Of a stretch of 64,000 bases of DNA, positions 59,799 to 63,081 are shown one piece after another. How positions within the stretch are numbered: position 1 is the stretch's first letter; each line of letters starts with the position of its first letter. The notes under the pieces are model-generated. The model had not been told where the DNA came from. It searched no databases and was given only the letters and a program-made list of their open reading frames with translations. The translations under genes and the position numbers were made by a program. The DNA lies in assembly GCF_030064675.1 (NCBI RefSeq), contig NZ_CP116413.1:1521001-1585000 (forward strand), read 5' to 3'. The DNA comes from Crossiella sp. CA-258035. Lineage in GTDB: Bacteria > Actinomycetota > Actinomycetes > Mycobacteriales > Pseudonocardiaceae.

Positions 59799-59819
59799 TC
59801 GTACGGGGTGTTGGCCGCT
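59786..59819 (+). repeat. Intergenic direct-repeat element, copy 2
   Basis: A 34-bp element with two GTGTTGGCCG-type copies flanking TCGTACGG, 30 of 34 positions identical to 53570-53603. Its right end touches the stop codon of mtnC. Confidence 0.75.
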
Positions 59820-60507
59820 ACAGCTCCAGCTCGCCGAACTCCGCGATCCAGCGGTGCCCACCGGCCGGGCCGTGCTGCTCGCCGGGCCGTCGCACGCCGA
59901 TCGCCCGCCAGCCCGCCTCGACCGCCGCGTCCAGCTCGGCGGCCACGTCGGAGAGGAACAGCGTCTGCGCCGCGGGCACGCCCAGCGCCGCGGTGATCCG
60001 CCGGTAGGACTCCGCCTCCCGCTTGGGACCGGCGGTGGCCAGGTCGAAGTGGCCGCTGAGGTAGCCGGAGAGGTCGCCGTGGTCGCTGTGCGCGAACCAG
60101 TCCCGCTGCGCGGCCACCGAACCGGAGGAGTAGACGTGCAGCCCGATGCCGGCGCCGTGCCAGGCTTTCAGCGCGACCGGCACGTCCGGGTAGACCTGTC
60201 CGCGCAGGTCACCGGCCAGGAACCCGCTGTGCCAGATCAGGCCCTGGAGCTGCTTGAGCGGCTTGGCCTTGACGTCGGCGTCGATCCAGCCGACCAGCGC
60301 CGCCACCACCTGCTGCTCGTCCGCCCCCGGTTCACCCAGCTCCGCGCGCACCCCGTCGAGGACCTCGGTCGCCGCCGGGGTGCCCCGGTGCTCGGCCAGC
60401 CAGTCCGCCACCCTGGCCCTGGCGTAGGGGAAGAGCTGTTCGTGCACGGCGGCCAGCGGACTCGTGGTGCCCTCGATGTCCAGGACCACCGCCTGCGGCT
60501 TGCTCAC
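59818..60507 (-). CDS. mtnC: Acireductone synthase (enolase-phosphatase E1)
   Basis: A 229-residue HAD-family enzyme (nucleophile motif AVVLDIEGTTSP; VYSSGSVAAQ; FLSDVAAELDAA). It catalyses enolisation and dephosphorylation of 2,3-diketo-5-methylthiopentyl-1-phosphate. Last gene of the methionine-salvage operon. GTG 60507 overlaps the mtnD stop (GTGA). Confidence 0.95.
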   Translation of the reverse strand: MSKPQAVVLDIEGTTSPLAAVHEQLFPYARARVADWLAEHRGTPAATEVLDGVRAELGEPGADEQQVVAALVGWIDADVKAKPLKQLQGLIWHSGFLAGDLRGQVYPDVPVALKAWHGAGIGLHVYSSGSVAAQRDWFAHSDHGDLSGYLSGHFDLATAGPKREAESYRRITAALGVPAAQTLFLSDVAAELDAAVEAGWRAIGVRRPGEQHGPAGGHRWIAEFGELEL

Positions 60508-61082
60508 GCGGGCTCCGCCACCAGCTCGTCCAGGCGAGGGAACTTGGCCGCGATCGGGTCGCCGGTGAAGTCGCCGACCCAGCCGTCCTCCTCCTCGAAG
60601 AACCGGATCGCCACGAAGTCCGGGGTCGGGCCCATGTCGAACCAGTGCGTGGTCCCGGCGGGCACCGAGAGCAGGTCGCCCGCCTCGCACACCACCGCGT
60701 ACACCCGCTGGTTCAGGTGCAGGTAGAAGCAGCCCTGACCGGCGACGAAGAAGCGCACCTCGTTCTCGCTGTGCCGGTGCTCGTCCAGGAAGGTGCCGCG
60801 GGCCTTGGCCGCGCGCTCGGGGTAGGTCTCGTCCTCGGGGTCGGGGCGCAGCGCGGCCACGTCGACCAGCCGGAACCCGCCCTTGGCCTTGAGGTCGGCG
60901 ACCTCCTCGGCGTAGGCGGCCAGCACGGCGTCCTGGCCGGCCTTGGCGTGCAGTTCCCTGGTCGCCCAGTTCTCGTACTCCACGCCCAGCTCGGCCAGCG
61001 TGGCGCGGATCTGCTCGGCGTCCCTGGTGCGCAGCTCGACGGTGGTGGGCTCGTCTTCCGGCATGACCTGCAAGAGCGTCAT
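60504..61082 (-). CDS. mtnD: Acireductone dioxygenase
   Basis: A 192-residue cupin with the metal ligands EHRHSENEVRFF (HxHxxxE) and, later, TTHWFD. With Fe2+ it yields the methionine precursor 4-methylthio-2-oxobutanoate; with Ni2+ an off-pathway reaction. ATG 61082 overlaps the mtnB stop (ATGA). Confidence 0.95.
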   Translation of the reverse strand: MTLLQVMPEDEPTTVELRTRDAEQIRATLAELGVEYENWATRELHAKAGQDAVLAAYAEEVADLKAKGGFRLVDVAALRPDPEDETYPERAAKARGTFLDEHRHSENEVRFFVAGQGCFYLHLNQRVYAVVCEAGDLLSVPAGTTHWFDMGPTPDFVAIRFFEEEDGWVGDFTGDPIAAKFPRLDELVAEPA

Positions 61083-61696
61083 GAGAACGCACGTCCTTTC
61101 AACAGCAGCAGCAACTGGCAGATCGACTCCACGCACTCCATGCGGTTGCGGGCCTGCGCGTAGTCCGCTCCCCAGGTGGTGAGGCCATGATGTTCGATCA
61201 GCACCACCGGCGGCGCGTCCGGGTGCTCGATCAGGTACCGCTCCACCTCGGCGGCGATCCGCGGCACGTCGGCGTGGTTGGGGAACACCGGCACCGTGGT
61301 CGCGCTGGGATCGCGCAACCCGAGTCCCTTCAACAGCTCGAAGTCCTGGATGTCCACTGTGGACAGTTCGGTGCGGTGGCCTTCGAGGGTGGCCACCGCG
61401 GTGGCGTACGGGGAGTGCGTGTGCACCACGGCCTCGGCCTTGGTGGCCCGGTAGATCGCGGTGTGGATGGTGGTCTCCGCCGAGGGCCTCGGCGCGTCCG
61501 GGGAGACCGCGGCCGAGGTGTCCACCGAGACCAGCACGGTGTCGGACTCGGTCAGCGCGCCCTTGTCCCGGCCGCTGGCGGTGATCAGCGCGGTCTCCGG
61601 GGACACCCGCACCGAGATGTTGCCCGCGGTGCCGGGCAGCCAACCCCGCTGGTACAGCTCGCGAGCGGCCGCGGCCAGGGTCGCACCCGCGCTCAC
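61079..61696 (-). CDS. mtnB: Methylthioribulose-1-phosphate dehydratase
   Basis: A 205-residue class II aldolase-fold protein (GTAGNISVRV; zinc ligands in VHTHSPYATAVA and EHHGLTTWG). It dehydrates methylthioribulose-1-phosphate. GTG 61696 overlaps the mtnA stop (GTGA). Confidence 0.95.
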   Translation of the reverse strand: MSAGATLAAAARELYQRGWLPGTAGNISVRVSPETALITASGRDKGALTESDTVLVSVDTSAAVSPDAPRPSAETTIHTAIYRATKAEAVVHTHSPYATAVATLEGHRTELSTVDIQDFELLKGLGLRDPSATTVPVFPNHADVPRIAAEVERYLIEHPDAPPVVLIEHHGLTTWGADYAQARNRMECVESICQLLLLLKGRAFS

Positions 61697-63081
61697 GAGG
61701 CCACCTCGGCCAGCGCGACCACCTTGTGCGGGGCCAGCTTCTCCGGATCCGTGCCCTGCTCGACCACCAGCACGCCGAACCCGGCCACCGTGCCGCCGCT
61801 GCCCCAGACCAGCTCGGCCGCGTCGCCGAGCCGGTCGCCGAGCACCTCGTCCACCACCAGCACCCTGGTGCCGGGCGCCACCGGGTTGCCCGGCAGCACC
61901 AGCGGCACCTCGGCGTGCCTGGCCAGCGCGGCGCCCAGCAGCAGCCCGCCGGAGGCCAGGCCGAGCACCGCGTCGAAGGAACCGCGGAACTCCTCGGCCA
62001 GCGCGCCCGCGGCCGCGCCGAACAGCGCGGGGTCGGTGTAGACCCCGGACAGGTCCAGGCCCTCGCCGATGGCCGAGGTGAGCCGCCCGGCCAGCGCCGT
62101 GCCGTGGTTGGGCCGCCACACCCGCCGCTCGGTGACCACCGCGCTGACCAGCTCGGCCGGGGTGACGTCGAAGGCCGGGTTGAACACCGCGACCCCGGCC
62201 GGGGCCACCGGCGTGCCACCGAAGGCGGTGACCTCCTCCGCGGCCCGCTCCTCGACCACGATCTGCGAGCCGTGCGCCAGCGTCTCGTCCACCGTCGACT
62301 CCGGCGCGACCACGATGAACGGGATCCGGTGCCGGGCCGCGGAGACCGCCAGCCCGTAGGTGCCGATCTTGTTGGCCACGTCACCGCGCGCGGTGATCCG
62401 GTCCGCGCCGACCAGGACCACGTCCACCTGGCCCAGCGACATGGCCGCGGCGGCGGCCGAGTCGACCAGCAGCCGGTGCGGGATGCCCTGCTCGGCCAGC
62501 TCCCACGCGGTCAGCCTGGCGCCCTGCAGCAGCGGCCTGGTCTCATCGACCAGCACCTCCTCGACCCGCCCGCGCCCGGCCAGGTCGCTGATCGCGCCCA
62601 GCGCGGTGCCCCAGGCCGCGGTGGCCAGCCGACCGGTGTTGCAGTGCGTGAGCACCCGCAGCGGCCGGTCCGGGGTCAGCGAGAGCACCAGGTCAGCGGC
62701 CTGCCGGGCGGCGGTCCGGTTGGTCGCCTCGTCCTCGGCGAGCATGGCCAGCGCCTCCGCCAGCACCGCCTGCTTGCCCTCGGGCAGCCGTTCCAGCGCC
62801 CGCCGCACGCCCCAGGCCAGGTTCACCGCGGTCGGCCTGGCCTGCGCCAGCCGCTCCGCGTCCGTCCTGACCACCGCGTGGTCGGTGTGCAGGTGCGCGG
62901 ACAGCGCCACGCCGAACGCCCCGGCCAGGCCGATCGCGGGCGCCCCGCGCACGGCCAGCGTGGCGATCGCCTCGATCACCTCCTCGACCGTGGCCAGCCG
63001 CAACCACCGCAGCTCATGCGGCAGCACCCGCTGGTCGATGGCCACCACCACGCCGTCGTCCCAGCCGAGTGTGTAGGTCAT
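61693..63081 (-). CDS. mtnA: Methylthioribose-1-phosphate isomerase fused to a PRTase-like domain
   Basis: A 462-residue protein, about 115 longer than usual MtnA. Residues 1 to about 345 are a complete isomerase (RGAPAIG, catalytic Cys147 in THCNTGRLAT, Asp227 in GADRI, GDVANKIGTYGLA). Residues about 348-462 resemble a type I phosphoribosyltransferase: DAVLGLASGGLLLGAALA, then GTRVLVVDEVLGDRLGDAAE and GGTVAGFGVLVVE. The PRPP loop is atypical (DE in place of DD or ED, DRLG in place of TGGT). Methylthioadenosine breakdown gives adenine plus methylthioribose-1-phosphate, so a linked PRTase domain would make sense. ATG 63081 follows AAGGGGTGG. First gene of the mtn operon; no mtnP or mtnK is in the window. 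Confidence 0.92.
   Translation of the reverse strand: MTYTLGWDDGVVVAIDQRVLPHELRWLRLATVEEVIEAIATLAVRGAPAIGLAGAFGVALSAHLHTDHAVVRTDAERLAQARPTAVNLAWGVRRALERLPEGKQAVLAEALAMLAEDEATNRTAARQAADLVLSLTPDRPLRVLTHCNTGRLATAAWGTALGAISDLAGRGRVEEVLVDETRPLLQGARLTAWELAEQGIPHRLLVDSAAAAAMSLGQVDVVLVGADRITARGDVANKIGTYGLAVSAARHRIPFIVVAPESTVDETLAHGSQIVVEERAAEEVTAFGGTPVAPAGVAVFNPAFDVTPAELVSAVVTERRVWRPNHGTALAGRLTSAIGEGLDLSGVYTDPALFGAAAGALAEEFRGSFDAVLGLASGGLLLGAALARHAEVPLVLPGNPVAPGTRVLVVDEVLGDRLGDAAELVWGSGGTVAGFGVLVVEQGTDPEKLAPHKVVALAEVAS

Follow-up and report, generated by a model that had tools for sequence, protein, structure and literature searches.

An APRT-like domain fused to the methionine-salvage enzyme MtnA in the genus Crossiella

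In the window analysed here, a stretch of 64,000 nucleotides from Crossiella sp. CA-258035, the methionine-salvage gene mtnA encodes a protein that continues into a domain resembling adenine phosphoribosyltransferase (APRT), and we confirmed this fusion in Crossiella as real. It was confined to Crossiella within the genomes sampled and is a new combination of known families. Based on the comparisons described below, we consider it probable that an APRT-derived domain became joined to MtnA, lost its activity and has persisted as a folded appendage without catalysis. If so, the whole genus illustrates how a domain of a metabolic enzyme can be fused, be disabled in each of its active-site loops and nevertheless be retained.

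The fused MtnA and its gene unit

The open frame at 61693-63081 had been proposed in a first-pass annotation that named no strand; it proved to lie on the minus strand and to encode one protein of 462 residues. Full-length copies were found in all five Crossiella genomes (its own, one further genome of the same species and three of other species) at 84-100% identity, and because frame and domain recur throughout these genomes, including the second one of the same species, a chance open frame is ruled out. The gene is the first of a tight unit, mtnA-mtnB-mtnD-mtnC, in which every neighbouring pair overlaps by 4 bases:

61693-63081, minus strand: mtnA with C-terminal domain (mtnA-CTD fusion), 462 aa, uninterrupted frame
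62104-63081, minus strand: MtnA core, residues 1-326, with C147 and D227 kept
61693-61696, minus strand: overlap of mtnA stop and mtnB start, GTGA, 4 bp (GTGA or ATGA in 5/5 Crossiella loci)
61079-61696, minus strand: mtnB, 205 aa (TIGR03328, 178.5 bits, cut-off 137.05, scanned with 4 extra upstream residues)
61079-61082, minus strand: mtnB-mtnD overlap, 4 bases, from the coordinates
60504-61082, minus strand: mtnD (acireductone dioxygenase), 192 aa (Pfam ARD, 97.6 bits, cut-off 27, scanned without the first 4 residues)
60504-60507, minus strand: mtnD-mtnC overlap, 4 bases, from the coordinates
59818-60507, minus strand: mtnC (acireductone synthase), 229 aa (TIGR01691, 223.6 bits, cut-off 128.1)

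The mtnD protein matched no model in the NCBIfam scan. In all five Crossiella loci mtnB is a frame separate from mtnA, and none of them is an MtnA-MtnB fusion.

The core matched two MtnA models above their cut-offs, NF004326 with 389 bits over residues 4-330 (cut-off 271) and TIGR00512 with 383 bits over residues 5-323 (cut-off 279), the latter covering profile positions 3-334 of 335. Residues C147 and D227 were invariant in 20/20 MtnA or MtnA-like rows of the alignment (A5, from which we omitted loci whose match contains internal stops, as well as L024-L027, L029, L030 and L083-L088), and they align with a Cys and an Asp in structure 2yrf. The catalytic Cys and Asp of MtnA are presumably Cys160 and Asp240 in the numbering of the B. 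subtilis enzyme. Judged by its sequence, the core is thus an ordinary, complete methylthioribose-1-phosphate isomerase, and the earlier description of a complete MtnA with Cys147 and Asp227 holds.

Origin and active-site loops of the C-terminal domain

The extension had been described as phosphoribosyltransferase-like from about residue 348 to 462. Its phosphoribosyltransferase character stood and could be narrowed to a derivation from APRT, while the start had to be moved forward, homology to APRT running from about residue 330 to 462. The features of the domain are as follows:

61696-62094, minus strand: APRT-derived C-terminal domain, residues 330-462 (alignment A4, structure model, Foldseek and tree)
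61939-61962, minus strand: degenerate PPi loop GLASGGLL, residues 374-381 (E-A/S-R-G-F in APRT; Gly378 replaces Arg)
61870-61905, minus strand: residues 393-404, PLVLPGNPVAPG, where about 27 APRT residues including the R-K catalytic loop are missing
61816-61863, minus strand: degenerate PRPP loop VLVVDEVLGDRLGDAA, residues 407-422 (VVDDVLATGGT..A in APRT), two residues shorter

Matches of the domain to profile models were weak, with 25.0 bits for Pribosyltran (below the cut-off of 26.3) and 30.2 bits (E 2.7e-7) for the APRT model PRK02304, short of its cut-off of 125. Identity over the aligned columns to an APRT from another genus of the family was strong, at 48%. For the alignment (A4) we combined the domain with 17 of 22 distinct APRT loci; the five omitted loci (L060, L061, L063, L066 and L068) are near-copies and also show RGF, R-K and ATGGT. 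A4 takes the place of an alignment with row L004 in the wrong frame (A2), and a third (A3) was dropped since MAFFT placed the APRTs on the N-terminus of MtnA.

A structure model of the domain reached a mean pLDDT of 93 and a pTM of 0.88, with the fold partly given by the APRT rows in its alignment. Foldseek searches with this model returned human APRT (6fci) first, with a probability of 1.00 and a query TM of 0.82. The comparison with APRT and OPRT structures proposed in the first-pass annotation thus yielded a phosphoribosyltransferase fold with human APRT on top, from a model whose alignment held APRT rows. In a full-length model made without these rows, the domain was poorly predicted, with ten-residue pLDDT means of 70 or less. 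A relationship to OPRT was rejected, being weaker than that to APRT both in model scores and in Foldseek.

In a tree of 22 rows the domain fell into a clade of 12 rows with what we call type-2 APRTs (support 100/98), and the 10 canonical rows, among them the host's own APRT, stood apart from it. With a branch of 0.82 for the domain and two further rows of its clade also flagged for long branches, the domain's closest partner among the type-2 APRTs can be placed only tentatively. Taken together, alignment, fold and tree indicate that the domain shares ancestry and fold with APRT and descends from a second, lineage-restricted APRT type. In two other genera this type is probably a working enzyme, since each of the four genomes tested there gave a match to no other APRT; in G241 it occurs alongside a canonical APRT. 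At two of the type-2 loci (L071:8022-8552 and L072:7902-8474) the gene adjoins an SRPBCC-like gene, named by eye.

Compared with the 17 intact APRTs, four elements are absent in all five Crossiella copies: the N-terminal adenine-site segment, the Arg of the PPi loop, the R-K loop and TGGT. The first of these is the segment PDFPxPG, which we take to be the adenine site of APRT. At the PPi-loop position all five copies carry Gly378 and all 17 reference APRTs an Arg. The flexible R-K loop, present in 17/17 references, is missing together with its flanks in 5/5 copies. In the PRPP loop, DE(V)(L/V)GDRLGD stands in every Crossiella copy and ATGGT in every reference: GDRLG, two residues shorter, replaces ATGGT and what comes after, with one Gly still aligned. 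The loop comparison across homologues therefore bears out the degenerate PRPP loop of the earlier description. Both VVDEV and the remodelled region GDRLGDAAELVWG are invariant in the five copies.

Of 57 columns with one residue in at least 14/17 APRTs, 24 have the same residue as the most frequent state in Crossiella, and the other 33 have a different residue or a gap. Those lost in 5/5 copies include P16, D17, F18, P19, P21, G22, V23 and F25 of the N-terminal segment, E60, R62 and F64 of the PPi loop, R82, K83, G85, L87 and P88 of the flexible loop, and A126, T127, G129 and T130 of the PRPP loop. Conserved columns that were kept include D27, V56, G63, G115, D122, G128, L137, G142 and G147; in the numbering of the fusion, structural positions such as D343, G379, G404, D411, G429 and G434 remain, and the acidic pair of the PRPP loop, D411 and E412, persists. 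We infer that the domain is no active phosphoribosyltransferase and that neither PRPP nor adenine is bound in the manner typical of APRT. There is precedent for APRT copies without activity: an excerpt of PMC8836349 describes an isoform of the enzyme in Trypanosoma brucei that is kinetically inactive.

Distribution of the fusion and constraint on the domain

Among 60 relatives, 33 gave a match to the fusion, comprising the four full-length copies within the genus, 27 MtnA or MtnA-like proteins ending by residue 349 and two APRT-like stretches only. When a profile of the domain was run against 297 genomes of the family, 119 matched at E <=0.001; in the five Crossiella genomes the match covered all 143 positions with 256-289 bits, and the runner-up reached 57 bits over positions 22-81. 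With at most 13 first-look candidates scored per genome, no comparable match to the domain profile was seen in the 292 other family genomes. The same was true of 393 other genomes of the class (394 with the own genome; E <=1e-7, at most 10 candidates per genome), where one partial match reached 34 bits over positions 22-71. At the level of the phylum (396 genomes, at most four candidates each), 202 genomes matched the full protein and, among the matches listed, only the own one passes residue 367. A collection search with the domain alignment returned three loci, two from Crossiella and one stand-alone APRT from Streptomyces. Two of the five Crossiella genomes appear to be those of Crossiella sp. 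S99.2 and SN42, whose loci (L076 and L077) equal L002 and L031 in open frames and scores. Scanning the 1.5-kb flanks of 44 loci, we found phosphoribosyltransferase matches only at nine Crossiella loci (four of them duplicates) and no phosphoribosyltransferase adjoining mtnA at the 35 loci outside the genus. The extension is accordingly not a common part of actinobacterial MtnA, the case that the first-pass annotation had named as refuting its reading; a universal extension is ruled out by the 27/33 matching relatives that end by residue 349, and the family, class and phylum searches agree. No report of an MtnA-APRT fusion was found in full-text literature searches that covered few subscription papers.

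Over all ten Crossiella pairs, dN/dS ranged from 0.03 to 0.45 for the domain and from 0.08 to 0.30 for the MtnA core. In four resampled pairs the values were 0.21-0.45 for the domain, 0.24-0.28 for the core and 0.22-0.32 for mtnB, and a ratio of 1 was reached in at most 1/300 draws. By this range and these resampled ratios, the domain is constrained and under purifying selection. In the four pairs that include the most distant genome (G003), the dN of the domain exceeded the core value by a factor of 2.2 to 2.7, with dN/dS of 0.41-0.45 against 0.24-0.30.

In the MtnA tree, Crossiella falls into a clade of eight rows with moderate support (83/90), and the other three rows (L006, L008 and L080) are MtnA-MtnB fusions. 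These three, all from outside the genus, encode MtnA and MtnB in one open frame of 517, 537 and 542 aa from the start of the match. The APRT-derived domain thus occupies the place that MtnB has in the nearest relatives, and in 5/5 Crossiella loci MtnB starts in the overlap with the mtnA stop. Insertion or replacement at an MtnA-MtnB junction would be one scenario for this arrangement; independent fusions would be another.

Possible roles of the domain and comparison with known systems

In the history that we favour, MtnA would have gained a C-terminal domain derived from the second, lineage-restricted APRT type, and this domain would have lost the adenine-site segment, the PPi-loop Arg, the R-K loop and TGGT before the sequenced Crossiella diverged. 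The APRT ancestry, the losses and the retention under purifying selection can be read from the sequences themselves, and the domain would have been kept as a folded appendage. That it acts on MtnA in a structural or docking capacity is a tentative proposal, which we infer with less confidence. It may help to hold MtnB, since the nearest relatives fuse MtnB at this place and the Crossiella MtnB is separate with its start overlapping the mtnA stop. A more specific version, to which we attach little probability, is that the inactivated APRT serves as a docking domain replacing the covalent MtnA-MtnB fusion of the sister lineages, keeping MtnB close for direct transfer of methylthioribulose-1-phosphate. 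Several observations speak against a retained appendage: the faster evolution of the domain in the pairs with G003 is the pattern expected of a decaying passenger, the acidic pair D411/E412 is kept, the fold of the confident model is partly given by its APRT rows and the model made without them predicts the domain poorly, the support of the MtnA clade is moderate and the branch of the domain is long.

It is rather unlikely that the domain is a passenger without a function, kept since a misfolded tail would harm MtnA and an early stop would halt ribosomes before the mtnB start. The loss of all four APRT active-site elements fits such a passenger, as do the faster rate relative to the core in the four G003 pairs and the 4-bp mtnA-mtnB overlap in 5/5 loci, which the mtnB-mtnD and mtnD-mtnC overlaps in the window repeat. 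In the two closer resampled pairs, however, the dN/dS of the domain (0.22 and 0.21) is similar to that of the core (0.24 and 0.25) and of mtnB (0.26 and 0.22), and the invariance of the remodelled GDRLGDAAELVWG goes beyond what folding alone obviously needs.

PurR, a regulator with the phosphoribosyltransferase fold, has an intact PRPP-binding loop as well as a DNA-binding domain. A comparable role here, raised as an alternative in the first-pass annotation, in which the domain binds a nucleotide or metabolite at its remodelled site and regulates MtnA allosterically, seems distinctly improbable. It would agree with the retained core and acidic pair D411/E412, with the invariant remodelled loop and with Foldseek matches that include PurR with cPRPP (1p4a; query TM 0.77-0.83), but neither the adenine-site segment nor the phosphate-binding motif TGGT is present, and the phosphate loop has D416, R417 and D420 within it and next to it.

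The genome content bears on the earlier suggestion that the fusion couples both salvage branches. The own genome carries a separate APRT with all motifs, and in each of the four other Crossiella genomes it has a counterpart of full length, free of stops and 83-98% identical. For PF01048, the family that includes MTA phosphorylase and MTA nucleosidase, eight matches were found in the five genomes. The one in the own genome is a purine nucleoside phosphorylase (TIGR01698, 334 bits, cut-off 302.6) that scored 73 bits against the MTAP model, below the cut-off of 274.85, and four further matches resemble it in score and length. The remaining three proteins (L090, L091 and L092, from three Crossiella genomes) are unlike the housekeeping phosphorylase and have a nucleosidase-type look, judged by eye only. 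Among these eight matches (one tested against models, three assessed by eye), neither an MTA phosphorylase nor MtnN was recognised, and MtnK (MTR kinase) had no match in the own genome.

We give hardly any credence to an active adenine (or other) phosphoribosyltransferase coupling both products of MTA phosphorolysis: the domain is specifically APRT-derived and MTA phosphorolysis would supply both substrates, MtnA's and APRT's (as stated in an excerpt of PMC6302742), but all four active-site elements are lost in 5/5 copies, each genome has a separate APRT, and the genus search recognised no MTA phosphorylase or MtnN, with MtnK unmatched in the own genome. The coupling suggested earlier is thus not borne out, and we reject active joint salvage of adenine and methylthioribose in view of the residue losses and the genome content.

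The own genome has mtnABDC without a recognised MTA phosphorylase, MTA nucleosidase or MTR kinase for the entry step of the pathway. Methylthioribose-1-phosphate could possibly come from a promiscuous phosphorylase or by way of prior deamination, a route that an excerpt of PMC6302742 describes for Pseudomonas.

These results are a warning not to label the protein a bifunctional enzyme of salvage. Close relatives, in which the enzyme of the following step is fused at this position, show the alternative, which makes the genus a testable natural experiment on retention after loss of catalysis.

Residues 5-326 of the fusion align along the solved MtnA structures (1t9k, 2yrf; TIGR00512), with C147 and D227 kept. 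Of 14 MtnA loci outside the genus, 11 end 317-350 aa past the match start and three run into MtnB, whereas the Crossiella MtnA extends by about 135 APRT-like residues. With APRT (TIGR01090, PRK02304; human 6fci) the extension shares the core alpha/beta fold and the 48% identity to a family member; unlike APRT, it is fused to MtnA and lacks the adenine-site segment, the PPi-loop Arg, the R-K loop and TGGT. The best PDB sequence match of the domain profile was adenine phosphopsicosyltransferase (7f06, 35.7 bits). Both have VVDEV and a PPi loop in which GG stands and Arg is lacking. In 7f06 the matched halves are about 30 residues apart and VVDEVI is followed by SSGGT, neither of which applies to the Crossiella domain. 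With PurR-type regulators (1p4a, 1o57) the likeness is a phosphoribosyltransferase fold, as matched in Foldseek, without catalysis; in contrast to PurR, the Crossiella domain has no TGGT and is attached to an enzyme.

The closest parallels are fusions of salvage enzymes. In L006, L008 and L080, MtnB takes the same C-terminal position, and MtnAK and MtnBD, likewise fused methionine-salvage enzymes, occur in Tetrahymena according to an excerpt of PMC6302742. In MtnA-MtnB, MtnAK and MtnBD the partner is an enzyme of the salvage pathway, whereas in Crossiella MtnA is joined to an APRT that has lost its active-site elements.
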